A stretch of 64,000 nucleotides of DNA from Branchiostoma floridae. Its lineage: Eukaryota; Chordata; Leptocardii; Amphioxiformes; Branchiostomatidae. A model generated the notes under the pieces. The model saw nothing but the letters and a program-made list of their open reading frames with translations, was not told where the DNA came from and did not search any database. Every line of letters begins with the position of its first letter. Positions within the stretch are counted from its first letter, which is position 1. The stretch is taken from the NCBI RefSeq assembly GCF_000003815.2, contig NC_049984.1:8142197-8206196 (forward strand), in the 5' to 3' direction. A program made the translations under genes and the position numbers. Positions 16,909 through 64,000 of this stretch are shown here, piece after piece.

Positions 16909-19900
16909 ATGCCGAGAGCTTTCCTTGTGAAGAGATTCAAGCACATCTGGGAATCTGGCGAGGCCAAGGAATCCGAACAGGGCGAGATGGGAGGTAAGAA
17001 GAGCCACGTTTTGTCCAGATTTTAGCACACAGGCAGTGGTTATCTCTAGCCATGGGTGTTTACCTATGCAGTGTGTGTGACAGGACCCGGTCCAGTGACT
17101 GTAGTTGATCCTGCCGTACCATACGGACATGCTTGCATACCGTGAATCTAGGCTGCCGAAGCTCTGTCCTTATTCAAACTTTCAGCCTCGAGAAAATCTT
17201 AAACAGAAGCTCGTAAAAAGCTCAGAATTTCTCCATCGGATGTCCAGACGACGCGCCCGCCTGTTCTAACTCGTTCCGACCGTTAGGTCTCACCACGAGC
17301 CGCGTGCTTGCCATGATAGGACCTGGCATAGCTTGTTTTAAAGCTGATTAATTGGACCCATGTTATATTTCAAGGGGTGGCTTGTGGCCCCAGACCATGT
17401 GTGGTATGAGCCAGGCTTCCTGACTTGTAGGCCACCCCGGGGTCACAAGGCTAACAGGACAGGACGGCCTTTTCTTCAACACGTGGGTTCTCTGCGTCGA
17501 AAATGTAGCAATGTTCAAAGACCACGAAATGAACATGTAGCGTAAACAACGTCATGGTGAATGCAGCTCAAACAATAACATTGTGGTTTTAGAAGTAGGG
17601 GTTTTAGAAACATCACATTTCTTCTGTTGCTTGGGTATTTTCAATACTTGGCTAGATATAGAGCCTGGTCGTGATATCACATCCGCACATCCGAGAGATA
17701 GCAACAATTAAAAGTCATGGGCATGTTATTTAGCGGATCTAACGTAACTTCCCCCGTCATGACGTGTTCGTCTGTACAAAGTCTGCTGGACTAACACTAA
17801 CACTGGAAAATGAACTTGGATTACGTCATATGCTGTTCTACGCGTTTCCGTATTCTTGGAATCATTTCGTGTGTATTACAAATTTGTGTAAGTCGGTTGT
17901 TTTGAGTCGCTAAAATCCCAAACTATCCAACAAGACGGTTTCTTGGAAGTGATCGTCATTCATATATGGCGACGGAACCTGAATATTCCTCATCCCAAAT
18001 GGTTCCGTCTGATTTTGAAGGAGTCAATTGGTCAAATTCGTCAACATTGCCATTAAAAAAATCTGATTCTATTACAAGAAACATGTCAAGCTCAGCCTCT
18101 GCGTCATGTAAACGATCGTCGTCCAAAAGTGTCGTCTGCAGGGGTTGCCTGGGCGACAGGACACTATAAATAGTCCCCTCCATCCCGGTGAGGGCCCCGT
18201 GTCCGTATATAGTCAAAGTGATGATGGGCGATACATCTCTGCTCGTGTTTTTGTACACATCATGTGTTACTAAATACCCCCACCACTCTTGCAGGTCTGT
18301 TGTTTTGTAACGCAGGACGAGACAAAATTGAAACTTTTTAATTCTTTAGCAACGTGTTACTGTCGCACATGGGTATTACTGTTGCATATGTAGGAGCTGT
18401 CCACCTTTGTTCTTCTCATCAGTGAGCTAGAAATGACCCATGTGGCGGATGACCACCTGTGCTGGTCAGTTACAAATGGTCAATCTCCAACTACTCCCCA
18501 CAAATCAGCAGTCAGCTGTTCCATACCAACTTCATCATTCAGACCGATACGCTGTCAATGACGTAATAGTAAACTTACCGTGCTTCATCGAGACATACAC
18601 AAGACTGACATTGTGCGACGATTCCTTAGAGTAGATTTTCTCAAGAAACACAAAACTTAGGAGTAACCTTGGCGGAAACCCAGGGGTGTGCTCAAAGGTA
18701 ACACTGACTGCGGTAAGAACAGGCCGCCTTTGTCTGCAGATGCCCCTGTTGCGGCTAAAGTTTCTCCCTTCGCCAATTTTGGTCCGGAAAGGTAGAAGTC
18801 TGTGATTCTGAGTCTGGGTTGTCTCTTGTGAATTGACTATAATCTGGCTTTTTTCTGTCTGCCGAAATTTATCCGACCGCCTTCTTTAGCCTCCTCTGCA
18901 GACTTATCTTTTTTTTTCTTGATGGATTTCAGTTCAGTAATTTGCAGCATGGTCACAAAATCAAAATTCAATAAAACTGATCAGAAAACCGTCAGAAAAA
19001 AAGCATATTCTAAGCCCGACTTGTGGAGCCCGCTGTATATAAAGGAGGCTAATCATTACTATAAATGGAATGTATAATCCTCGCATGAGACGGACAGCTG
19101 ACTCGACTGAAACCTGTGATTAGTATATGTAAAATTATTCAGATGCGTTCTTGTTTTTTAATTGCTTTTTTTCTTTCATTTTTCACATCGTTTGTATGAC
19201 ATGATTATGTATGCTTAGTAACATCTACTAAGGCGTTGAAGGTCACAAAGAGCATTTCAAATCTAGATCTCCGATTATCGGAAAATTGACAAATTCCAGA
19301 CTTCGGCTTTCCTTCTTTTCACAAAGACCGTAAAGTCGTTTAAAGCTCTTCAAAATTATCCCAACCCATTGTGTTAGCTAATTCTTTCTTTGTGTCAGAA
19401 ATCACCTTCTGTCTTTGAAGTCTGGCGCCTCGGCAGACATAGGAAAAACCACGCTGTGGTGTTTTCCAAAAATCTGTTGTACTAGCCTGATTGGTTTATA
19501 ATAGACTGTCTGGAGCGTCGGCCATTTTAAACGATTGTCATTGTGTAGCCATGGAAATGTGTATCTATCTCTATTGTTCGTCTCTGATCATCGAGGTGTC
19601 GCGACATGTTACGGGACAATGAAACAGTGAAAAGACGGGAGGAACGATGTCTAATTGGAGGATAATAGCGGGCCAGCTTTGAGTCGGGCCATCCGGTCAT
19701 CTACATGTCCGACATGAGTCCCACGCATCATTAGAGAGTTTTTGCCCGAAGTCTAATTTCTGCCTTGTTGCAAGTAACAAGAAAAATGGAGAACGGACAA
19801 ACAATGGAGAACAATATTATATTTGATTACTGTGGTCTAAAAATGTTGACTCTACTTTTCCTCAGACAATGGAAGTCGAACGATATGCATAAGGTGAATT

Positions 19901-22676
19901 TGCACACCTACACATGACATTTTGCATCAAGAGTTCAAGTTATATAAAAGACTCGTACGTCAGACTCAGTTTCCAAGATTCTACAGCAGACGAAATTCAC
20001 ACTTGCTCCCTGATTTTCAGAAGCCCCCGAGCCGGTCACCCTGGTTCCCGTGGACTGGAGTAAAGGCTACCACCCCGCTCCCTTCTTCAACCCGCTCGGC
20101 CTGCCGCTGGTCGCCCCCCACCCGGACACCAGCCCCAGCCGCCGGAGTCCAGTCGAGGGCACCGCTCTGCCCCCCTCCCCACCCCCGGACCTGCACACCG
20201 ATGACCTCAAAATCAAGGTCGACGATGAGGACATTCTCAAGGCCACGACAACACCCAACAACAAACACAAACAGGTGAGTTTAGTTTGAACATACATCAT
20301 GTACATGTAATAGTTTGTCAGAGAAAGCATGGTCCGTAGGTTTTGTTCAGAGACTTTACCCTGAACTGGCTAATGCTAATGACCAAAATGGTCGTTTCAG
20401 CTAGTGCCAACAAACTTTCGCTTTTCATCGCGTTGAGCTCCCGTGAAATTGGAGGTAAATTATACTGTTAGCTTTCCACTTCGCGCTGTTTGTTCCGCTT
20501 AAACACCGTTTACCTATACTCGGGTTATATGTGTTTGTTTTCGACAGCGGTATACATACACCAGTGCACTATCTAAGACTTTCGTAAAGTGTTGTATGCG
20601 ACATACTTTCTTTTCAAATACTATGGTCGACTGAGTACCGCACTAACAAAGTAACTACTCACAGAGCGACCAAAAACAAACTACTCTCTTCCGTCCGGAT
20701 CTTGTGCCCATATAAACCCCGTACTAATTGGAAACGCGCTAATCGCTGTGTGGCGTGGGGACTCGCGTAAATAAACTCGGATGTCCAAAAGATTACACCA
20801 ACTCGAAACAGCACCGGCCATCGCCATGTTCTTGTTGGGGACCGATCACTGGTGAAGATAGAACAGGGGTAAATGATGGATTGGGGGTTCGTCTTTTTCG
20901 GAAGCAGTGGAAGACGAAGTATCCGACTTTTTTCTGTGTAATCACTAGTACTTAGTGGATTTTATAGTTTTCTCTTCGCCATTGCATGGGAAGTATGTTC
21001 TGAAAACAACAACAATGCTAGCAAATCAGAACGAGCTACATATGTAATAAACAAAACCGCAGACGCACACCAAGACAAACAAACAAACACATAAACGCAC
21101 AATTTTCTCGGAGGCAATAGGTAAAACAACTTCTTGATTTATTTTATTTGAACAGACCAAGACCAAGAGGGAGCGGTCCGACAGCGAGTCCTCGGTGAGC
21201 CCTCGGGGCGGTGAGACGCCGACCGGCCCGTACCACTGTCCGGAGTGCGGTAAGCGGTACAGCACGTCCAGCAACCTGGCACGGCACAGGCAGACTCACC
21301 GGGACCAGCAGGACAAGAAGGCCAGGAAGTGCCCGCACTGCGATAAGGTAAGCATCAAAGCCTTGTTGATAAAACAGCAAAAGATTCACTGTCCTATTTA
21401 GGCTAACGTCACATTTCCACAAAGGGGTCCGGCCAGACAGTTTTGGGGAACGAAAAGTACGATATAGATGACAAGTAAAACTCAAAACGGACCAAAAGTA
21501 ATTTATCAACATGTCTTGTGCATATTCATTGGAATAAACTTTGATTTTTCCGAAATTCGTTTCCGCAAACAGCCCGAACGGGCCCCGTGTAGGGAATATG
21601 ACGAAGGCCTTAATCGTTGTCGATCGATCCCATACGAGCGACCGCTATGATGTCACGGTGACGTAATGATAGGCAGAAACCAAGTGTTGATTATGAATTA
21701 TATGTTAGCTGCTAATTTGAATACTACTTTGTAATCTAACCTGCGGACGTTATTTTACCTGCCATTCGTCGAATACGCCGGATGTAAACATAACAGTCAT
21801 CGCTCTTATAGCCCTGCCCACCTTCGTCAGAAGACTCAGAACGTAGTAATTCAACTTTTATTGAATATTGAAAGATTGATTCTGATGATTTATCTCTTGA
21901 TGTGTTCCAGGTGTACGTGTCGATGCCCGCCCTGTCCATGCACATCCGCACGCACAAGCAGGGGTGTAAGTGTCCGTACTGCGGCAAGTGTTTCTCCCGA
22001 CCATGGTTACTACAGGGGCACATCAGGACCCACACTGGTGAGCAACCCTCAACTTCTAGTTGCCTTCGCAATCAATTTGTTTATTTGTTTGTTTGTTTTT
22101 CCTGTCGTGAACCCGTATTGACATGGATTTCGCATAGTGGCAGCATATGAGGAGGAAGTGGTGCAATAGGATACTTGGAGTATTGGAAGTGTGGTTTGCT
22201 TTAGTTACAATGGTATGATTGTCGTTAAAAGCCAGGATAACTCATGGTTACACACACAATGTAATATCAGATTGACTTGTATGGATACAATAGTTCATTC
22301 TAAAGCTCTTCGATAGTTTTCTACTAAAAATATAATTTTTGTTGTTTTGTGCCCAGAAATGTATACTAACGGTGATTCTTTGTCTGTTTGTTGCACAGGA
22401 GAGAGACCATTCGTGTGCCAGATCTGCGAGAAGGCGTTTGCCGACAAGTCCAACCTGCGGGCGCACACCCAGACCCACTCGGACGCCAAGCCCTACGTCT
22501 GCGGCCGCTGCGGCAAGGCCTTCGCGCTCAAGTCTTACCTGTACAAGCACGAGGAGAGTGCCTGTCTGCGGAGCACCGGCAAGGTCACCAAGGCGGCAAC
22601 AACACCCAGACAGGCACAGAGGCAGGGCGCGGTGGACAGACGGGACCCGCAGGCCCCCATAGCTGTGCAAGGATAG
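16909..22676 (+). CDS. SCRT: Scratch zinc-finger transcriptional repressor, complete
   Basis: Snail-superfamily repressor of the Scratch branch, nuclear and neural in other animals. Five exons join in phase to 311 residues: 16909-16993, 20021-20274, 21156-21347, 21911-22037, 22399-22676. Residues 1-9 are a SNAG repression motif (MPRAFLVKR); start context CACCATGC. Residues 30-113 are proline-rich and acidic. The five C2H2 fingers have ligands C141/C144/H157/H161, C172/C175/H188/H192, C198/C201/H214/H218, C226/C229/H242/H246 and C254/C257/H270/C275; the last is CCHC as in the family. [41 protein letters not shown] and [10 protein letters not shown] mark it as Scratch rather than Snail. Finger 2 is split by the intron after CDK, and the TGERP linker spans the last intron. 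Human SCRT1 is slightly longer (about 348). Paralogue level is undecided; a single pre-duplication orthologue is expected. Confidence 0.95.
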
Positions 22677-34736: not shown

Positions 34737-37541
34737 ATGAAAGTTTTCACAATTGATACAGGCATTTACATCGCTGGTTTGCTTTGATCTACATACAGTT
34801 GGTGGAATGTCGAAGAAGTATCTTTGCCTGATATTCCTTCCATTTTCATGGTTGTAACTCAAATGATAGCTCGACGAGCGTGCCCGGTGATCTTTCATCA
34901 AGCATATAGGAACTCTGACTTTGGACCAACACCAGACGTAACTTACGCCCACTTATTCTTAGCAGCTTTGAAAGACAAGGCTATTTCTGCCGTCTGTGAA
35001 GGTCGCCTGATGTGACTTTAGCTCTCGTTTGGGGACATGGGGATAACAGATGTGTGTTTGTCAAACGCTATATCGAGATAAGACGGATTCGAGCCTAAGC
35101 CCATGTCACTTAGTCGACTAATTTCGACTGTATTTGCTGAGTACCAGAAACCTCATCGAATCTAATTTTTTAAAAATCACCAGAGACTCGGATGTGTTTT
35201 TTTCACCTGAAGAATCTACCTCCATCACATCAGATGGGGCCCGGGAACCCGCGAATATCGGCTGATCTATAAAAATCGCGCGACGATCGAGAGAACATTT
35301 AAGTTTTTTTATAATAAACCAAGCCATGTTAATCATACTTTGTATAGTAAATCGACTATCCAGATGCCATGCTCTATAACTATAAAGGCACCCCATAATC
35401 ATATATACACTTAAATGCATATGTGTATAGCTTGGACTCGGTCCAGTACTGGTGCTGAAAACATGTACAGCTACCTGTTGATTTTGGACGCTGTGAAACG
35501 GAAGAAACAAGAAAAACAGTCTAAGGAGAAAGCTAAAGAAGAGTTTATTTGGATTCTTGAGAAGTAGCATCATGTCTACGAGCCCAGTCCTGTCCGATCA
35601 AAACAGCCCCGTCTTTGTTTCCCAGACGTGCCAGTGTGATAAGTTTACCCATCCTCATGGCTTACTTTCCCCATCCAAACACACGGTCATGCTTAGAGAA
35701 GCAACAATTACAACCGGAGCGCACGAAGACGTGTTTTCCCAACTTGTACCCAACTCTGTCTACACAATGGGCGGACTTCATCACACCACTGCACGCGCTC
35801 TGACGGCAGCTGACACAAATGTCTATTCCATACAACCTGTGTAAACAGTCTCTTAGTCACAGGTACTAACTATTTTACACATAAAATCTAACCAATGTGG
35901 ACTTTTAAAGCAAATGGAAAGCCCTTTTGGCCTGCAATGTCTATTTAAAGACCATAGTATATTTCTACAACTGTCAATGTTAACATTATCTTATGCAATT
36001 CGTGACAATCAGCACATCTTTGCTTGCAAATGGTCTCAATAGATGGCACAGGCACTAGCTATTTACACCTAAAATAGAACTGATGAGTACTTTCAGGGCA
36101 ATGCAATGAAGTTCAAACGTTGTCCTTTGGCGTCTAGTGTCTAATAGTGTCTAAGATGTTTCTACACATGTCTTCTTTTTCAGATCTACTTTCACAAACT
36201 ACGTAAACAGCGTGATCTAGTTTGAAAATAGTGCCAATAGATGTTCCTCATATCTGTATGCAATATTAATCAGGCATTTCATTAAGATAATTTATAATTG
36301 GCTTCAACTCCGGGATTCGATGAACGTGAAAGTTTTGTGTTAGAGATAGCTCCTGTGCTCTAGTTTGGGCCCTCCAGCAGCTTCTTTTGGCAATGCAGGA
36401 GCGTTTCATATATTGATATATCTCATCAACTCTTGGACCACCAAGTTTAAATTTATTTCTATTCGATCAGTTAGTAAGGCAAGGTAACATTGACTGATGT
36501 GTTGTCTTAGATGGTGGATAAATGTTTACCAAGGAACAGGGAAACACTAAACAAGGAACTGTAAAGGCGTAGATTGGACCACATAACTGCTGCAAGCTTT
36601 CCAATTTTCGAGTCACCATCTTCCCACCAACGTACCGCATATACATATGGGCTGTTGATAACTTGTGCTTGCAAAGGATTCGATTGCGAACATTTTCTTT
36701 GTAGTGATCTTCACTTGCCGAGAAGAAAGGCGGGTGTATATATAGCACCTCTTGCGTTCTCATACAGTACTGCAAAGGCTTTACATCAAACGCGTACCAT
36801 GGTGGCAAGTACCTTGCGCATACCTTCGTAGACTGTTCATCTCTTTAACCAATGATAGAATGGCAATTAGTTTTGTTTTAACCAATGAGAGAGTGGCTGT
36901 ATGTGTGTTGTTAAACAGTTGTATGTTTCTATTTCACATTTTTACGTTTTGACGGAGGCTCCGGTGGATGGCTAACGGGGTCGGTCTATTGATGACATAA
37001 CGTTACTTCCATTGTGTCGTTGTGGATCTTTTTTTTTTTCATTAATTCAACAAAAAATACATTTCAATATCAATAGTTACGTGTACATACCGTAAATCCG
37101 GATGCAAGATATTAAGGAGGATAGTAACAGCTGTCATCTTTTACACAACGCTTTATCAATAGTGCAAATATCTGTACAACTTAATCATCTGGGAAATCTA
37201 TCAATACATTTCATTATTTTGTCACAAATGATGCACGTGAGGAAAATAACAAACGTAGTGGAGTTACATTTGCCTTGTTCTGGGCGCGACCAAGAATATC
37301 ATAACATGTCTTTGGTGCGACTGTTGGTAGCGTCCTGAGTTGCCTAGCAACTGTTTTCGCCTGTATGTAACAGCTGTGAGTCTACTCTGATGCCCACGTC
37401 ATGTATTTCTGTGCCACGTTAAGTGGCGGAACAGAATATTAAATTATAGGGGTAGTTTGTTTTCTATTTTCCTAATTTAATCATAAAACATTCTGTGATA
37501 TCACTGTAATAGTATTTCATGTATCTCATGCATTGAAATGA

Positions 37542-37704: not shown

Positions 37705-40700
37705 ATGTGGACCGCGGTGTCTGTGATATTTTTTATCTGTCTGCTGGTCTGTCCCGAGTCGGGGGCTGTTGTGATGCGACTAGACAACGCCACATATGAC
37801 CAGGTAACGTTTTTCTTCTTGTAGTTCTTCTGTGCACTGTATACAACGAATCCTATGCGTTCTGTCTTTTGATTGTAGACATTACGATAAGTAATCACCA
37901 GCTTTCAGAACGATATAAAACTCCTACAATTGTATATTGTGTTTTAGTTACACACACATTTGCACACAGAGCTATCGTTTTGTTCGTAAGTTGCAGAAAG
38001 ATGACGACGCCCTCATCTTTGTGAGTTGATGGCATTGTGGGCACTGAGTTCCATAATGTGTTCTTCTATTGTTTCCAGGTCACACGCGGAGATAAGTTCG
38101 TGCTGGTGCAGTTCTATGTCAAATGTAAGTGGAGATATACTATGATATGATATCACATAATATCATATCACATCATACCATATCATATCATACCATACAG
38201 TGTTATATCATATTACTATCACAGCATGTATCACAGCATATCATAACACTTCCCAGTAACAATCTTTGGCCAGTGGTCATAAGAACGAGCAAGTTTTGTT
38301 CAAAAATGGAGGTGACACAAAGTCAGTTATGTCATGGAAACGCGAATTTAAGCACTTGTTGAGTATAATTTAGTTTGTTGGTTGGTTTGTTGCTCTATAG
38401 TTTTGTCATGGAAACGCGAATTTAAGCACTTGTTGAGTATAATTTAGTTTGTTGGTTGGTTTGTTGCTCTATATTTCTTTCTTCAGCAATCACACATGTT
38501 ACCTGATCCCACCAGGGAGCTCCGTCTGTCAGAAGCTGGAGCCGAAATGGGAGGACGTGGAGAGGAGGTACCGGGAAAGAGACGATGTCGTCATCGGGAA
38601 GGTTAACGCCCAAGAGGACCGGATTCTCGTGACCAGGTTCCGCACCACCACATTTCCAACCATTTTCTACTATCCAAAGGGAGTTACCGAGCACCAACCG
38701 TGAGTTTTGTTCAATTTTTGTCACATTTCTTTCTTGGTAATATTTCGTTTCTTAGAACCACTTTACTAGTGTGACAGGCACCATACCAAAAATCGAATCC
38801 TTAGCTCGGTCTAGCAGAGCCCCCACAAGGTATTATACAAATGTATGTGCTGCAGACGCGGCTTTGCATTTAGAGAATGCTTTCAACTGAAGAGTCTAGC
38901 CTGCTTCTCTCTTCTACCGCAGGTACGAGGGTCGCCACACCATCGCGGCGTTTGTAGAGTTGATAGAACAGCACGCGCCCACTACCTGGGTTCGGAAGGT
39001 CTTCACCAAGGAACTCAACTCCACCAACTTCGACGAAATCGTCCTGGACAAGGACAAATTTGTCATGCTGCAATTCTACAATACAAGTAAGGCATACTTT
39101 GATAGATTGGGAGATGGTAGATGCACACACAATTAATAGCTTCCTGAAACCGGTCTATACAAAAACGTTACGCAGAAACACAGATCCATGTACAACAGTT
39201 TTCTTTGTATTCTAGATTGGATCTTACTATGCCCGCCTGGAATCTGTGATTATCTGTACTAGTAGACGGTCTTTCTTTTAATGTTGACTATTTATAACAG
39301 CTGGTCGGAGGGCATGTCCGTCCACATAGCTCGGTCCAGTTTAGAACAGCCTCCCCAAGCTATATCATAGTCATGATTCTTATTATGCCATCTAGCGGAC
39401 TGCTACAAATGTAAGAAACTACAGCCGGACTACGAAATGGTAGCTGAGACCTTCCACAATGAGAGAACAGTGAGTATTTACGTCATACAGTCAAATTATT
39501 TTGTCAACCAGTAGAGAAAGTATGCATGATATATAAGTGATACATGTACAAGCAAAAAATAGTGAGGTGGCGTGGGTAGTGCTAAAGAGAAACATGAAAT
39601 TGATTAGAATGAGGCTTTCTCATCTTTCGCCACGTTAAGAAATTTTTAAAGGCAAGACTATGACGGTTATATATAGCCTGGAATCCAGCCGTGTTGTGCT
39701 TTGGTCGCTCCCCCAATTTACGCTTCCTATGTTGGCAGGCTAGGTTATATACTGTTATGATCAAGAAATTACCAAATGGATTATGATTTTTACAGATTGT
39801 CGTGGCCAGAGTAGACACCGAAACACACCCAGAAATAGGGGAAAGGTGAGACCAAATAAAATGCTACCATGAATTTTATGTCAAAGAAACAATGCCAATT
39901 CTGCTTATGCTTTTCAAAACATATGGTTTAGGGAATGGAAATAAGACATGTTTCTTTCGTGTTCTATTTTGTAGGTTTGGTATAGAGCAACATCCGAGAA
40001 TTATGTGGTTCACAAGAGACAACAAAAGAGGCATCCCGGTAAGATTCATTCACTAACTACTGCTTTGGTCCCACTTTTCCACCAAAGACATGCATGGTAT
40101 AAATTTGAAAGCTCGACTTAAAAACCTTTGTGAAAGGGGGAATGTACACAGATGCTTTATTTTCGCTTTTTAGCAGAGACTTCTTCACCGGAAACATAAA
40201 CCTACTGCGAAAGGTTTTGTTCTGTCTTCAGCCCACACACTCTCTTGTTTATATCGCAAAATCGAAACCACGGCGAACATTTCCGCTTTTACAGTATCTG
40301 AACTACTTGAAGCTAATCCAGGTTAACATGAATACTTCACTCCTTTCTCTCAATCTAGTACCAGTCGGCCATGAAGCCTCTCCAGCTTGTAGACTTCATC
40401 AACCATCAGTGTCACACGGCCAGGGAGCTGGGAGGTGGACTCACTAGCCAGGTAAATATCACCGGGCACAATCTGTTTAAGGGTTGAAAAAAGGTTGGGT
40501 CCGAAGGCATAGCCTTGTGGGTCGTTGGCACAGTGAATGTTCCAAGCTAAGTTCGCAATACCTCTATAACGAATTGAGAAAGTAACGCGCCCGCCGTTGT
40601 GCCCGTTGGCTCAGCCATGGTGCTGAAAAGCCTTCACTTGGTCTCGAAATGACATCGACCGTTTCAAATAGCAATGGCAGTTTGCAAGACGGAAACGCTT

Positions 40701-42199
40701 GGCTTCGACACAGCTTCATATTAGTGCATTCCGTTGACTTATAGGCGTGGGTAACAGTCTGGTACTTTTTCTCCTCCTTCAAACAGGCCGGAAGGATGGT
40801 GGAAATGGACGCCGTAGTTTCCAACTTCATCGCCAGCATCGTAAGTGGAAAGCTGACTAACGTTACATGTAATACTGTGAAGAGCTTAGAGAGTGAGATT
40901 AAACTTGCAATGTGGTACACTAGGACTGGCAGAAGTTAGTGAATTTCAATTACCAGATGCTCAAGCAGAATAACTATGAAATGAGTGGCCAGGTGTTATA
41001 TGTTAACGTTAATATTACTCCTTTCTAAACATTTTGTCGAAAGACGCTATAATATACACTCTGTTCCTATGTATGTAGAGGTACCATGGGAGGAAAAAAC
41101 TATGGTAAAGGAAACAAGTGTGTTGTGTTTTACACGCTCTGTCCTTCTACAGGCCGATGTACAGAAAGAAGCGGAGAAGGTGAAGGATAAGATGGCTGGC
41201 AGACAACATCCACATTTCAAGTACGTCATTTCCTGTATCATCAACGTCATTTCCTTGACACGAAACATTTACTGTACATAGCACATGAAAGGCACTTTAA
41301 TACTTTATCAACAACCCTTTTAATGAGGTTACAACAATGAAAGTGGCAACAAATTATAAAAGTTATACTAAAACTTCTGACGACCATTGTGTTGGTCGTA
41401 ATAACTTCAATCCCTCTTATTGTTCTGCAGCTACAGCAGTTTTTACATGGATATGTTGGACAGGATCGGTAGTCGTGGTTACGAGCTGGTCACCATGGAG
41501 ATAACAAACCTTCAAAATAGTCTTGGTGAGTTCTGGTCGCAATTGAGAGCACGGAAGCAATGGAGTTAAACCTGCTTGGTTTAAGCATATGAGAATAAAA
41601 GTCAACATCATGATAGATGAATGAAAGATCTGGATCTACTAGAAGTGGGACAATTACTTTCGACTTGACCTAAGAGTCTATGACTTGTCAAATGCTTCAA
41701 GACATGTAATATCAAAAGATTCATATGTTTTACAGAACTTGTTTGTCACTCGTGAGTCAGTATGATATACGATACTGGCTATAAGATGATATGGACCGCT
41801 TCCCTTCGATGTATAGGGTATCACAAGAAACGGCTGGTTCCTACAACCACCTCATAAACCACCAAGTGAGCGAAGCGGACCATGCATTATGACAGTGTAT
41901 ACATTTCGGGATGGTCATTAAACTTATATTTGACTTTTTCAGCGACATCTCCAAAATCGATGCCAGAGGAAGAAAGGGAGGATCTGATCATGCGTGTTAA
42001 CATCCTCCGCGTTTTTCAAAAGGCATACAGAACTCAGTTTCCAAGGTTGCAAGACTCCGATTCCGACGAAAAGAAGGGCGAAACTGCAGTTGTCGAACAG
42101 CGTGCTAAAGACCCTCCCAACGCCTTCCAGAGGAAGGTCCGGGGAAGGGGGAAGAAGGGATACACCAGCAAGATGCGGAGTATCAAACATGAGCTTTAA
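37705..42199 (+). CDS. PDI-like ER protein: two thioredoxin domains plus ERp29-type C-terminal domain
   Basis: Twelve exons join in phase to 415 residues: 37705-37803, 38079-38124, 38516-38699, 38923-39086, 39396-39469, 39796-39845, 39975-40038, 40359-40451, 40787-40840, 41153-41220, 41431-41525, 41943-42199. Residues 1-21 form a hydrophobic signal peptide. Thioredoxin 1 (about 24-130) has the site W49-SSVC-53, lacking the first cysteine, and cis-Pro96. Thioredoxin 2 (about 134-245) has FYNTTD-CYKC (C167, C170) in place of PW-CGHC and cis-Pro213. The helical ERp29c-like domain (about 259-362) includes MRVNILRVFQKA. A basic tail ends KHEL, a KDEL-like ER signal. N28 and N142 are glycosylation sequons. 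The expected role is thiol-disulfide exchange or chaperone work on secretory clients. The layout matches plant/protist PDI-D (PDIL2) rather than animal ERp29, which has one thioredoxin domain. Domain calls are firm; orthology is not. Confidence 0.9.
38138..38247. repeat. Degenerate ATATC/ATACC pentanucleotide tract
   Basis: Roughly 110 bp of imperfect TATCA/CATAC units in intron 2 of the PDI-like gene, a microsatellite-type sequence. Confidence 0.75.
38330..38473. repeat. Perfect 70-bp tandem duplication (period 74)
   Basis: 38330-38399 is repeated without change at 38404-38473, beginning TGTCATGGAAACGCGAATTT and ending GTTGCTCTATA. It sits 42 bp before the exon 3 acceptor of the PDI-like gene. 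It is either a very recent duplication or an assembly artefact. Confidence 0.95.
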
Positions 42200-54736: not shown

Positions 54737-57700
54737 ATGTGTGAAAACAAGTCGAGAGCAGGAGATGGAAGGCTCAGATTGGTGCATGATGGGAAGCATT
54801 ATGACGTCACTGAGTTTGCACAGCGCCACCCGGGAGGGAAGCTGGTACTGCAGAGATATCAAGGTCAAGATGTTACAGCAGTCATGAAGGTGATGATGAA
54901 AGATGTATTGTATCCCTGAAAAGTTGTAAAAGCTAATATCGATGGCGTATTTTTTATTCTATATTGGCTCCTGTTGCTAGAGTGTTTGTTCTTGATGTTG
55001 ATGTAACATATGAATAATGCATATTGATAAATGTTCTCAAACACAAGCTCGACGCTCAAAATAAAGCAAAGTATTTTTTCCAGGGCCCTCTTCACAGACA
55101 CTCCCCAGCAGCCTACTCCATGCTGTCGCAGTACTGTGTAGAGGAGATAGGAGGAGCTGCTGATTCTAACGGCAATGTCAAGTTACACCATAGAGAGGTA
55201 AAAAGCATTCTTACAGGATTTGATAATACAAATGTAGCACCTTTAATGTAAAATGCACAGACACAATAGTCGTAAATTCATGACTGAAGAATGTAGTACC
55301 AGGCACATAATGGAACCCATTATGATATTATTGATGATATAATGGAACCCAGATAATATTTGATGTCATCAGTATTATGCATGGTCTTTCCATGTAAAAA
55401 TTGAGATTCGTCACTATAGAGATACCATATTGTTTTACATAGTAGTGATACTAGGTTTACGTTTCTTTGTCTACAAAACATACAGCTTAACACAAGCATT
55501 TGTTAGTATCCCAAACAATGAAAATGTTACTATTGTCTCTAGTATTCTTTTGTTTGTGTGCAAAACACGTATAGGAAGTCAGCATTGTTACTTTGTAGCG
55601 ACTGATTTATGTTTTGAATTATTAAAAAGCTGCTGTTGCTGTGCCCAGCTTGATGACGTACATGTTGATTGGGCTTGGTTATTAAAAGTGTTTTGGAGCA
55701 ATATCGTGTTATCTCTTGCGGGATCAACCACAATTATAAATCTATTCTCCAAGCAATATTAACTCTTGGAGAAGTGTACATGTATTTGTCACTAATATAG
55801 TACCTATACATGTGTGGCTTGTATTGATGGCTAGAAATGAAACAATTCTTTAAAAACAATGTTTTTTTAATGTTCTTGTTGTAGACTTTCTACTGCTATG
55901 TCTTAATTGGTTAACAGAAACATAACATACAATTGATTAATTTGTCATATTGCCCAATTCATGGGAACTTCTTTGATATAATATTAAGAATAAGAATACT
56001 TAGAAAGCTGAATATGTTTCTTTGATCACCCACGATCCTGTCAACCCTAACCCTAACCCTGAGGATTGTCTGTAAAATGGTATGAAAATAAGACTTATTT
56101 TAGATTCCTCAGCAAGAATGACAAAAGATTGATGTTTAAAAAAAGCATGTCNNNNNNNNNNNNNNNNNNNNNNNNNNNNNNNNNNNNNNNNNNNNNNNNN
56201 NNNNNNNNNNNNNNNNNNNNNNNNNNNNNNNNNNNNNNNNNNNNNNNNNNNCTGGAACAAACCACTGCTGGGGCAGGTGGGTCAGCTTGGCGACCTGTAC
56301 GATGAGTGGGTTCACTATCCCGTGGAGAAACCGTACCGACTCTTCAGCTCGGAGGTGTGCGAGTTCTTCTCTCGCTGCCCGTGGTTCCTGGTGCCAACGC
56401 TGTGGCTGCCGCTGGTGGTGTACTTCGCCTTCACGAGCATCGTGGAGTTACGGCAGGGTCAAGTGCAGGTCTTCACACAAACATGCAGTGGTCAGTCTTC
56501 TTACCTGCTTAGATGTTTTCAGTGCTGTTTGTGTGTGTGTGTTTGTCTGTGACTGCGTGTGTGTGTTTGTGGACAGAGTAACTTGAAAAACAGTGAATAG
56601 ATCCGTATAATATTTTTTCAGGTTGGCATGTGTTGGGAAAATGAACGTCAAGTTCGATAATGGGCATCAGAGTGGCTATTTGTTGTAAGTTATTTATCAA
56701 AAGATCAGAAAATTTGCATGCCAGTCATGATCGATGGGATTTTGAGGAATTGTTATACAAGCACTATTTGTCTAATCTTTACTTGGAAATGATTGTTCAT
56801 TGCATGAATAGATATGACTGAAACAACAATTTTATTTAGTCAAGCAAAGAATCATCATTGAAAAAAAGGTGCATTGTAATGTTTGATTTTTTCTTTCTTT
56901 AGCCTTAAAGTTCACAGCACCAGTGTCCCTGTTCCCTGTGGTATTTGCTGCTGGTGTGATGTTGTGGACCTTCTGGGAGTACTGTTTACATCGCTTCCTG
57001 TTCCATTCCAAAGCCGTGACCAGCTCACCCGGACTCATCATCGCACACTTCTTACTACATGGACAACATCATAAGGTGGGCTACAGCTGTTTTCAAGTGT
57101 TTGTTTCACATTATTGGTAACTGTCTTAAGGCATAGTATACCTGGACCAGTTTTGTACAATAGATCTATGTACATGTTGCATTAGACCAGATTGTAGGGT
57201 TTGATCACACTGTGATGGACCAATTGAATGGATCTCTACTTTTTTTGCCACGCAAGCGCAAGTGCTTTATTCTAATCTTCTCTCTCTCCCTCTTTCTGCT
57301 AGGATTGGCACTGTGCTAATGTGGTTCTTTTTCTATTACTTACAAAGTTTCTTCTGCCACCACTTCATCCTCAACATTATGTTAGCTTGTGCAGCCAGCT
57401 TTTTAAAAAGCATTGCTTGCCCTTCCAAGAGGATCTGTCAGTGACAGCAAACATCTTATTCTGTTTTTCATTGCCTTTTCCAGGTGCCATTTGACCCCGG
57501 TCGCCTGGTGTTCCCGCCCGTGCCTTGTTCCGTGTTCGTGACACTGTTTTACGTGCTGTACTCCCTGCTGCTGCCCCGCGCCCTGGTGCATGCCCTGGTG
57601 TCCGGGAAGCTGTGCGGTTACGTGTGCTACGATCTGACCCACTACTACCTGCTCCACGGATCACCCAGAGAGGACTCCTATTTCCACAGACTGAAGTCCT

Positions 57701-58221
57701 ACCATGCCAAACATCACTTCGTACACCAAGAGACAGGTGAGTTGGCATGGACCGATCCTCTGATAGCATGCTTTAACGTCGAGGAAGGAAGTTCACCTCC
57801 AATGGGGATATTGTTTTGGGTGTGTTTGGGTTTTTTTTTAATAATAACTCAAGATCATTTTGATGGATTTGTATGAATTTTGATAGATATTGAGGTCTTG
57901 TATGTGATTTGGGTCCCCTAGCGTTTGTCTCAGGTATTGCAGAATTACTGATGAACACCCTCATCTTAAAAGTAGTGTGGTATAGTCCATGGACAACTTG
58001 TCAGCTGTCCCAGATGAATGACCCCTAATGGAAGGAGATTATGGGGAGAAGGGCAGGGGAGGATCACTAATGTCTGTAATGATGAGGGCTATGACACTAA
58101 GCAATCAGTCTATTGACTACTTTGAACTTTGTTATAACATCATTATTTTCTTTTGACAGGGTTTGGAATTTCTAGCAGGTTCTGGGATCGTCCGTTCGGA
58201 ACGCTGATTCCAGGCTCCTGA
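54737..58221 (+). CDS. FA2H: Fatty acid 2-hydroxylase (FA2H), interrupted by an assembly gap
   Basis: ER membrane enzyme that 2-hydroxylates fatty acids for sphingolipid synthesis. Exons: 54737-54889, 55084-55197, [gap]56252-56490, 56903-57075, 57484-57736, 58160-58221; all visible junctions are in phase. The N-terminus is a cytochrome b5 domain: HPGG (axial H31) and GPLHRHS (H57 as second ligand). After the gap, WNKPLLGQVG, YDEWVH and two hydrophobic spans lead into the di-iron histidine clusters HRFLFH, HFLLHGQHH, HYYLLH and HAKHHFVH. The C-terminus FGISSRFWD matches the FA2H end, followed by a short tail (TLIPGS). The linker between b5 and hydroxylase domains is partly missing because the gap swallows the exon 3 acceptor and first codons. 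An acceptor just before the ATG implies a 5' UTR intron. Orthology to animal FA2H is strong. Confidence 0.95.
56043..56060. repeat. Short interstitial telomere-type repeat (CCCTAA)3
   Basis: AACCCTAACCCTAACCCT, three units of the animal telomere hexamer, 92 bp left of the N gap in FA2H intron 2. Too short to show a chromosome end. Confidence 0.7.
56152..56251. other. Assembly gap of 100 N
   Basis: A run of exactly 100 N, a common placeholder for unknown length. It removes the acceptor and 5' part of FA2H exon 3, where other FA2H proteins have the b5-hydroxylase linker. Confidence 0.98.
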
Positions 58222-59470: not shown

Positions 59471-61235
59471 GGGACCTGACGATATTTATCGGGGGGGGAG
59501 GGCTGGTGCATAGGTGGGGGGGGCCAATGAAAAATTTTTTGAGCCGAGGGGGGGGCCATTGAAAAATTTTTTGAGCCGAGGGGGGGGCCATTGAAAAAAA
59601 ATTGCCTGAGGGGCCTTGATAAATACTACCAAAATGTGCCCCTGAAATGCAGGAAATGAAGTTTCAGATGGTCAAGATTTCAATTTTTCTCTGGACGTCC
59701 CTTGCGACGGCTTGCGCCTCTGGCGCACACAACACTTCGGCGCTCGTCGCCATCAAAAGTCTCTTCCTCTGACAGAAAATTGTCATTACATTTAGCATAG
59801 TCTACCAGCGAAGTTTATCCCTCAAAATACAGAAAATCGTGTCTCAGAGGGTCCAAACTTCATCATTTGAATGACATTTCTCCAGACCTACCTTGCGACG
59901 GCTCGTGCCATGCCCGGCGCTCGAAATTGTGGAAATACGTTGGGGGCGTCGTCGCCCTCAAAACCATGTGAAGTTCTAATAGAAAGGCTATTAAACTTAA
60001 AGCTTAGTCTGCCAGCAAATTTTGCCCATCAAGATTTAGGAAAGACCGTTTCAGATAGTCAAGATTTCCAAATTTTCCCGGTGGCCGGAGCATGCCCCCG
60101 GACCCCCAAGGATTACGTTGATATAGTTCGCCCTCCCCATACTGAGAAATTTTCTGCAGCCGCCTCTGTCGTGTGATTCCATGTTCGCACGAAGTTTAAG
60201 AAAACTATAGAAACTAAAATTGGTATAAATATCAATCCTGCGTGCATCTGTTCTTTGTATACAGAATGGTTCACGGACGGCAACGGGATAAAACATTACG
60301 ATGTTTACTTTCGTGACAGCGGGCTCTCTGCTGCATATGACGTCATGGTGGCGCGAATTTTTTTTGGCAAGTTTGCAGGATGCAATTGGCCGAAATAACT
60401 CCCGTTTTGGAAAGATTGAAGCAGTCTTGAAGCGGTTTTCGAAACGATATCGCTAAAATGTACCCAAGTCTCTTCCATCTACATCATTAATTTGTTTTCT
60501 TTTGTGTAAATTTCGTACATGTGCGGTGGAAAAGATCGCCGAAGTTGGATTACCGCCCCGCCCCTCCCCGCCCGCTTTCTCTTTGTTGATGTGGACGCAC
60601 AAAATCCAAATTTTTTTGCCTCACAGAATGCGGGAAATTTCGTTTTAGAGGGTCAAAAATATCAAAATTTCCCGGGTAGCATGCCCCTAACCCCCGAGAC
60701 CGGTCGGGCCTTCGGCCCTCCGATCCCTGGACGGCCTTTAACAGCTAGCCGTCGGTCTGGCGGAAACGTTCAGTTTCGTGATCTTGCATATTAAACGTTA
60801 CCAGAGACTTTTTTTCACGTAGATTGGAGAAGTGATATCAGACAAGGTAAGTCTTATAACCGTTGCAGCGTGAGTGTAACAACATCAAGTGCTACATGAA
60901 AACTCGGCTGTTGTAAAACTTTGGGAGATAACATATGCCCCAGCAGGACTCCAACGTGCGTAATTTGTTGACGTGCGGGTCTTGACACCCCGGGCCGATC
61001 GTCGTCACGTTCAAACAACGCCACCGCTATTGTTAATGCTATATTATTTAATGACAGACTGTGTGTAATGGAAAAGGTAAGGAAAAATTGGAGGGGGGGG
61101 CCATTGAAAAATTTTTTGGGGCGAGGGGGGGGGCCATTGAAAAATTTTTGGGGGCAGGGGGGGGACCATTGAAAAATTTTTTACCAGACCTATTTTGCAC
61201 CAGCCCCCTCCCCCCAGTAAATAACGTCAGGTCCC
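59471..61235. mobile_element. 1765-bp TIR transposon, non-autonomous
   Basis: The left end GGGACCTGACG, followed by ATTTA, a G run and GGGCTGGTGCA, is matched in inverse at the right end (TGCACCAGCCCCC, C run, TAAATAACGTCAGGTCCC). TTA flanks both ends (59468-59470 and 61236-61238). Just inside both ends are copies of GGGGCCATTGAAAAATTTTT (three left, three right). The interior (about 59640-60720) holds four degenerate modules, each with a GGAAA-type start, TTTCAGA-GGTCAA and a GCATGCCCC-like end. No transposase frame is seen. Class is uncertain. Confidence 0.8.
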
Positions 61236-62832: not shown

Positions 62833-63616
62833 TTAGCTACTTCTTCCTCTGATGATGATATTTGAGCCAGCACTAAATTTCAGAGGAATGTAACCATCCT
62901 TGTTGGCCGTAACAACAACAAAATCTCCCTTACAGAATAATTCCACTGTTCTTAGTCCAAATGCTGCCTTAACCGCCTCCAGCTTCAGCAAGCCTCTATC
63001 TAGTAAAAAAGCCTTTACAATCTTCTCAGATAATTTGGAATCTTCATATGTTATATGTACAACTTCAGCATTTTCTAGACCAGGATATTCTGGATGTTCT
63101 TGGACATTACTTGTGTGTTGGGATATTCTGGAGTAGGCAACAAGGCTTTGCTTTATTCTTGTTATCTTCTCTATCTGTTGTCTCATCTCACCTTCTAATG
63201 ACTCCACACTATGTAAGGTGTCCATGAGACCAGGAAGAAGTTTTGAATCTGCATTTTGATGCTGTGAGTTTGTCACTCCTTCATTTCCTACTGAAGAGTG
63301 CTGTTTTGATTTTAAATTAGCAGCTAAATTGTGTGACAGCAAGTCTTCTGCTCCCCGGCATTCTGAGGTGTTTCTTCTTGCACCCAGCACCAACAGGTCT
63401 CTTCCAAGTGCTTGTTGTGGTATGTTGGTTACGTCTTGTAGCAGGGGACTCCGTGTGTTGTCTTGTGAGCTGCTTGTCTGCGCCTCTGTCCTGTGCTGTT
63501 CCTGACCACATGTGAACAGTGAAGGGAGAACCCCACCACTGGGCAGCCTCAGCTGAGACAATTCTACCTTCTCCTCTTTTGGCGATGTGTTCTGAATATC
63601 CTTAAGCTCAAAACAT
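62833..63616 (-). CDS. Last coding exon of an unidentified gene, 260 residues visible
   Basis: The exon starts at 63616 after a strong pyrimidine-rich acceptor (TTTTCTTTCCAATCCAG), supplying the third base of a split codon, and ends at TGA 62833. The open frame extends 11 codons further upstream only by reading through the intron. Residues 1-125 of the exon are polar and Ser/Gln/Asn-rich, probably disordered. About 137-160 is a charged heptad-like helix (VESLEGEMRQQIEKITRIK). About 184-255 looks folded, with alternating helix and strand (ITYEDSKLSEKIVKAFLLDR, then VELFCKGDFVVVTANKDGY). The length, codon bias and acceptor make it a real exon. I do not recognise the family; centrosomal or meiotic scaffold proteins have this texture but no diagnostic motif is present. 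Confidence 0.7.
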
Positions 63617-64000
63617 CTGGATTGGAAAGAAAAGTGAAAAACTATCAAGAATGGTGATCATTAAACCTCACATTTTTGTTGATTCAAAATCCTTGAACAT
63701 AACCAGAAAACCGACTTGGCTTTAGGTTTAACACACCAGTTCTGTACAGAAGTTGTATAAATAGGACTGTAAGGTCGAAACCACTCACACTGGGATGGAC
63801 CCCTAATCTTTTTTGATAAATGTGGTGAGATCTTTAGCATGGTCGAGGTGTGGCTGTCCACATACACTGGACCTGTGGCTTTATGTCCCATTATCCTAAC
63901 TAGAGGTACTCATTTTCACCTGAGCTGAGTATGGAAATATATTGTGGGTGCAAAGTGTGTTTCCCAGGGGCAGAACTTTGGGACTTGCTAGGGATTCAAT
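63617..64000 (-). other. Intron of the unidentified gene, mostly SINE
   Basis: No further exon before the right edge. Most of it is SINE copy D. Confidence 0.5.
63718..64000 (-). repeat. tRNA-derived SINE, copy D (cut by window edge)
   Basis: On the minus strand the order is ATTGAATCCC (B-box end, at 64000-63991), AGGTGAAAATGAGTACCTCT, CTAAAGATCTCACCA, TTATCAAAAAAGATTAGGGG, CCAGTGTGAGTGG, and CTGGTGTGTTAAACCTAAAG. These are the same blocks and order as copy A. The tRNA-like head lies beyond the window. Confidence 0.75.

Follow-up and report, generated by a model that had tools for sequence, protein, structure and literature searches.

An a-a'-D-type protein disulfide isomerase gene with two altered active sites in Branchiostoma floridae

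Protein disulfide isomerases (PDIs) of the PDI-D, PDI-S or ERp38 type (TigA; AtPDI11, TaPDIL4-1 and K. phaffii Erp41) carry a tandem pair of a-type thioredoxin domains, lack a b domain and finish with an ERp29-type helical domain, a layout written a-a'-D that also occurs in Entamoeba. A 2022 paper places a-a'-D PDIs in plants and Dictyostelium, with 'no ortholog in animals' (PMC8836223; here and below, papers are cited for individual passages). Another lists Dictyostelium, A. niger and N. crassa, 'not in mammals' (PMC3017771), and fungi are represented by the a-a'-D proteins ERp38/Erp41 (PMC10938136). Here we describe a gene of this layout in Branchiostoma floridae. It lies on the forward strand at 37705..42199 of a 64,000-nucleotide stretch of contig NC_049984.1 (assembly GCF_000003815.2, positions 8,142,197 to 8,206,196), hereafter the window, and the active sites of both its thioredoxin domains are altered. 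Judging from sequence, we put at roughly 0.6 the probability that the gene encodes a fast-diverged a-a'-D PDI acting mainly as a non-classical chaperone or adapter of the endoplasmic reticulum (ER), with at most one weak thiol site. Full-text searches, in which papers were recognised by title or start of abstract and most subscription papers lay outside the scope, brought up no published animal a-a'-D PDI; relatives from animals may well sit unnamed among the predicted proteins of public databases.

The window protein shares parts of its plan with several described families. Compared by published description, the PDI-D/PDI-S/ERp38 proteins have a CXXC pair in both a domains, whereas the window protein has SSVC in the first and CYKC in the second; no plant, fungal or protist a-a'-D sequence surfaced in the PDB searches made. 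ERp29 and Windbeutel have the C-terminal D domain and a KDEL-type end in common with it, but ERp29 has one redox-dead ERp29_N domain in place of two a-type domains, and a contact through Arg223 that the window protein lacks. PDIA6 (P5) also begins with two tandem a-type domains but ends in a b domain rather than an ERp29 domain (a0-a-b; PMC12781119). A separate PDIA6-like gene with CGHC is present in the same genome. The loss of a first active-site cysteine has precedents in PDILT (SKQS, SKKC) and TMX2 (SNDC): the SKKC and SNDC domains resemble the window protein in this respect, but the domain layouts differ (PMC12781119). PDILT is counted among the chaperones (PMC7687155).

Two thioredoxin domains followed by an ERp29-type domain had been proposed in a preliminary description of this DNA, and Pfam and NCBIfam matches above their cut-offs bear this out. 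Pfam Thioredoxin matches two stretches (E 5.8e-33, 113.4 bits, cut-off 23.5), the two domains submitted singly score 60.2 and 60.9 bits, and NCBIfam pdi_dom (TIGR01126) reaches 141.7 bits against a cut-off of 107.2. The Pfam ERp29 C-terminal domain (PF07749) aligns at residues 260-355 over model positions 1-95 of 95 (E 7e-09, 36.8 bits, cut-off 24.3). Between the thioredoxin pair and this D domain Pfam finds no further domain, that is, no b domain. The nearest solved structures by sequence in the PDB search are PDIA4, TXNDC5 and PDI. Searched alone, the D domain gave weak PDB matches to ERp29 and Windbeutel (E 0.048 upward), with an unrelated protein among them at 0.08; these single-sequence matches being weak, it is the Pfam profile match that carries the D-domain claim. 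Kinship with OST3/OST6 was considered and rejected: PF04756 does reach 52.7 bits (cut-off 27), yet this protein gives 113.4 with Thioredoxin, and the strongest PF04756 stretch covers positions 15-136 of 294. On these profile matches, the window gene is a PDI-family gene of a-a'-D layout, with two a-type thioredoxin domains and an ERp29-type D domain.

The exons were placed by reading the DNA by eye and then joining. The twelve exons of the preliminary description held up as an in-frame GT-AG chain over exactly the span from the first base of the ATG (37705) to the end of the stop (42199), giving 1248 coding bases and 415 residues without an internal stop:

37705..37803, forward strand: exon 1, start codon, hydrophobic leader (judged by eye) and first strand of thioredoxin domain 1
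38079..38124, forward strand: exon 2, domain 1 to the first base of the W49 codon; by-eye join and spliced aligner
38516..38699, forward strand: exon 3, domain 1 altered site W-SSVC (C53) and cis-proline P96; by-eye join and spliced aligner
38923..39086, forward strand: exon 4, end of domain 1 and start of domain 2; by-eye join and spliced aligner
39396..39469, forward strand: exon 5, domain 2 altered site TTD-CYKC (C167, C170); by-eye join and spliced aligner
39796..39845, forward strand: exon 6, domain 2; by-eye join and spliced aligner
39975..40038, forward strand: exon 7, domain 2 with cis-proline P213; by-eye join and spliced aligner
40359..40451, forward strand: exon 8, last helix of domain 2 and linker (C245); by-eye join, Pfam and spliced aligner
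40787..40840, forward strand: exon 9, start of the ERp29-type D domain; by-eye join and Pfam
41153..41220, forward strand: exon 10, D domain; by-eye join and Pfam
41431..41525, forward strand: exon 11, D domain, with N325, N328 and S329 at the positions of human R223, R226 and L227
41943..42199, forward strand: exon 12, end of the D domain, basic tail, C-terminal KHEL and stop; by-eye join

The junctions were checked in a second way with a purpose-written spliced aligner whose guide consisted of five human PDI domains only. On the window it recovered introns 1-7 at the same residues and phases as the by-eye model (three in domain 1, four in domain 2). It is silent on introns 8-11, which interrupt the linker and the D domain and for which the basis is the by-eye reading together with the Pfam match running across them. 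The start of the D domain all but coincides with the exon 8/9 border, a phase-0 intron, as might be seen had a two-domain PDI gene been wrongly joined to a separate D-domain gene. We regard such a join as very improbable, given that the leader is confined to exon 1 and a retrieval-like signal to exon 12, and that all 12 exons lie on the same strand, in frame, inside 4.5 kb. G+C content is 0.50 in the exons, 0.63 at third positions and 0.39 in the introns, a contrast expected of a coding gene. The excess at third positions, 12 open and spliceable exons, and an intact start and KHEL end speak against a decaying pseudogene of an ordinary PDI; degenerate sites in both domains and the long branches on which both sit would suit decay, but we consider this the remotest of the explanations weighed here.

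Read in order, the protein consists of a hydrophobic leader, two thioredoxin domains, the ERp29 C-terminal domain and the KHEL end, and it contains four glycosylation sequons (N28, N142, N163 and N299). The hydrophobic start and the sequons fit a protein of the ER lumen, and KHEL is a KDEL-like end; human ERp27, for example, ends in KVEL (PMC3500226). Leader-like start, sequons and KHEL together make an ER-lumen location likely. Intron 2 holds two copies of a 74-base unit with 98% match (38325-38473), and a TATCA-rich stretch lies close by at 38141-38245.

The two altered sites were read in the DNA as first described. Site 1 is W49-S-S-V-C53, in the context FYVK-W-SSVC-QKL, and has no CXXC pair. 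Site 2 is N163-T-T-D-C167-Y-K-C170, in the context FYNTTD-CYKC-KKL, where the CYKC is preceded by one extra residue and there is no tryptophan. A phase-1 intron adjoins each of them. In-frame alternatives with a GT or GC donor within 45 bases and an AG acceptor within 60 bases were listed. CGHC is restored by none of the 59, of which 36 concern site 1 and 23 site 2 (two of the lists contain stops), and a single site 1 alternative, with a weaker donor, would read C-N-S-V-C (CxxxC). Selenocysteine at the first-cysteine position was rejected from the codons of SSVC, AGC TCC GTC TGT.

For comparison, the spliced aligner was run on six further gene stretches of this genome, selected for their match to the window protein. 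W-CGHC and the cis-proline are present in all 18 of the other a-type domains recovered, with a guide itself built from CGHC domains; a 19th, poorly recovered domain (score 107) was left out of the count and also starts W-CGHC. Against this background, domain 1 keeps the tryptophan, the lysine and the cis-proline, with the loop arginine displaced by one column. Domain 2 keeps the cis-proline and both cysteines, and has threonine for the tryptophan, one inserted residue, arginine for the lysine and methionine at the position of the loop arginine, a residue found in 17/18 control domains. The two sites have thus decayed in opposite ways: site 1 keeps its surroundings and loses the attacking cysteine, and site 2 keeps both cysteines and loses its surroundings. 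The sequon N163-T-T lies four residues ahead of C167, the first cysteine of site 2, and a glycan there would cover the site.

The same genome carries a separate, ordinary ERp29, judged from its sequence, on contig C11. It was found as the one ERp29 C-terminal domain in a profile search of the whole genome, an exon-by-exon family search that misses the window's own intron-cut D domain and that other intron-split D domains could escape too. The C11 gene has a D domain (81.2 bits) and a KDEL end, and ERp29 and Windbeutel head its PDB matches. The distinctness of animal ERp29, as claimed at the outset, is upheld by the ERp29_N profile, which scores 135.6 bits on the C11 protein and 17.4 bits, below the cut-off of 20.7, on the whole window protein. 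D-domain identity is 38/111 between C11 ERp29 and human ERp29; the window D domain matches C11 ERp29 at 20/105 positions, human at 20/104 and fly at 23/99.

Human ERp29 cannot bind the P-domains of calnexin and calreticulin without Arg223; Lys204, Lys208, Arg226 and Lys237 also participate, and R223A, R223E, L227E and L241K each abolish binding (PMC7687155). At positions 223/226/227, C11 ERp29 has R/K/L, human and fly have R/R/L, and the window protein has N/N/S (N325, N328, S329). At positions 204/208/237/241 the residues are K/K/Q/I in C11 ERp29, K/K/K/L in human, I/K/K/L in fly and D/R/E/L in the window protein. The window D domain probably does not bind calnexin or calreticulin in the manner of ERp29.

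In established PDI chemistry, the first cysteine of a CXXC pair is the nucleophile and the second, usually buried, is normally the resolving one. Domain 1 would be unable to attack disulfides because this nucleophile is lost and only the usually buried second cysteine is left; it would run no oxidase or isomerase cycle and might bind clients without catalysis. Domain 2 could still form a disulfide of its own, but without the tryptophan and loop arginine, and with a residue inserted, it would be a slow thiol site at most. The preliminary description had envisaged a client trap in which one site forms mixed disulfides and the other resolves them. This idea finds no support, since domain 1 has lost the attacking cysteine, keeping only the second, and domain 2 has both of its own; the CRFS of ERp44 represents the reverse of the domain 1 loss (PMC12781119). 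The D domain may bind substrates or partners without the known Arg223-type contact; that of AtPDI11 raises activity and binds calreticulin (PMC8836223). The whole protein would then serve a special client set as a chaperone or adapter.

Several points weigh against this reading. The control guide favours canonical sites and would miss altered domains. The glutamine found in place of the buried glutamate carries no weight, as that glutamate is also absent from 10/18 canonical domains, and the change of the lysine carries little, lysine being absent from 8/18. In the D domain, Leu241 is conserved and position 208 still carries a positive residue, fly ERp29 itself lacks Lys204, and at about 20% identity the match at position 223 could be shifted; HMMER and MAFFT agree on it, however. 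Real redox activity is possible for domain 2, which keeps both cysteines and the cis-proline, and K. phaffii Erp41, an a-a'-D protein with the unequal sites CSHC and CGYC, is highly active (PMC10938136). These last two points would also suit a specialised working thiol enzyme, one in which domain 2 serves a narrow client as reductase or oxidase and domain 1 acts as a binding module. We consider such an enzyme rather unlikely: the tryptophan is replaced and a residue inserted directly ahead of the first cysteine, the loop arginine kept in nearly all sister domains is lost, and the N163 sequon stands close by.

The descent of the gene can be considered apart from its function. Trees were built from 24 rows (one ERp29_N sequence) and 29 rows (three), with a single domain representing the PDIA6-like gene; the poorly recovered second PDIA6-like domain and PDIA5-like domains 5 and 6 are absent from them. 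Domain 2 groups with one ERp29_N at 94/90 (24 rows) and with three at 91/77, below the support mark (29 rows), and both window domains group with ERp29_N at 73/56. In the 29-row tree the window domains fall outside the ERp29_N clade. Domain 1 has a' domains nearest by path. Branches are long, at 2.39 for the ERp29_N stem and 1.35 for domain 2 against a median end branch of 0.42, and the data do not reject a single clade made up of both window domains (p 0.18).

An intermediate between PDI-D and ERp29, as first suggested, is neither supported nor refuted by the trees: domain 2 does stand beside ERp29_N, but below the support mark and on long branches. In its full form the idea would be that chordates kept an a-a'-D PDI, that animal ERp29 arose from such a protein by losing domain 1 and the second site, and that the window gene is a survivor whose domain 2 is the closest surviving relative of ERp29_N. 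Such a history would fit either reading of function. Domain 2 also adjoins its D domain as ERp29_N does. Yet the ERp29_N profile finds nothing in domain 2 at E up to 1, the D domain occupies one exon in C11 ERp29 and four in the window gene, and the single-clade arrangement of the window domains stands unrejected; with the modest tree support and long branches, we hold this history to be improbable.

An origin of domain 1 from PDIA5, suggested by a shared intron phase, was rejected (p 0.005), as was a clade of both window domains with PDIA5 (p 0.012); domain 2 with the PDIA5 clade was not (p 0.17). In a tree without the three ERp29_N rows, the window pair stands at 100/99 against PDIA5 rows only, on branches of 4.08 and 2.6, and nothing is drawn from it.

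The shared phase concerns an intron in the tryptophan codon, which is in phase 1 in window domain 1, at the equivalent position of domain 2 and in 6/6 PDIA5-like domains. It is in phase 2 in six others (PDIA4-like 2/3, PDIA6-like 1/1, TXNDC5-like 2/4 and PDIA3-like 1/2) and absent from four control domains; two P4HB-like domains have an intron three codons earlier. These gene names were assigned from sequence alone. The PDIA5-like stretch, C16:15955000-15994999 on the reverse strand, holds six W-CGHC domains, all with the phase-1 intron, and is a candidate single gene; human PDIA5 has three a domains (PMC12781119).

A whole-genome protein search, run exon by exon with the 24 best candidates scored, gave 21 matches at E up to 1, 12 of them in the window gene and nine in other PDI genes. 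CGHC occurs at each of these nine loci, and no second, haplotype or paralogous copy of the window gene was seen among the 21 matches from the 24 scored candidates.

One motif upstream of the gene was singled out:

37394..37401, reverse strand: TGACGTGG, UPRE-type (unfolded protein response element) core, 304 bases ahead of the ATG

Cores of this type are ATF6/XBP1 sites. The 64 kb window holds no other copy, against 1.41 expected by chance over its whole length, and the chance of one within 500 bases upstream is about 1 in 100, for a motif picked after looking and with two motifs tried. The ER stress response element (ERSE), allowing up to one mismatch, has one match in the window, at 17508, and none near the gene. 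Post hoc, the upstream core hints at control by the unfolded protein response.

Elsewhere in the window, an open frame at 62836-63657 on the reverse strand matches WDCP (WD repeat and coiled-coil-containing protein; 57.2 bits, cut-off 25.3). Together with the ERp29_N domain of the C11 protein, this match agrees with an animal genome. Another frame, at 57445-57873 on the forward strand, resembles fatty acid hydroxylase weakly, its 23.8 bits falling short of the cut-off of 31, and perhaps belongs to an FA2H-like gene; there are unknown bases in a run nearby, around 56.1-56.3 kb. A C2H2 zinc-finger exon lies at 22317-22673 on the forward strand (48.9 bits). Two short arrays, at 59516-59598 and 61093-61182, repeat a 32-33-base unit that is almost identical between them and contains eight consecutive G.

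The window gene provides an architectural counter-example to the stated absence of a-a'-D PDIs from animals. With this gene and a true ERp29 in one genome, comparing the two can test how ERp29 arose and what becomes of paired redox sites.

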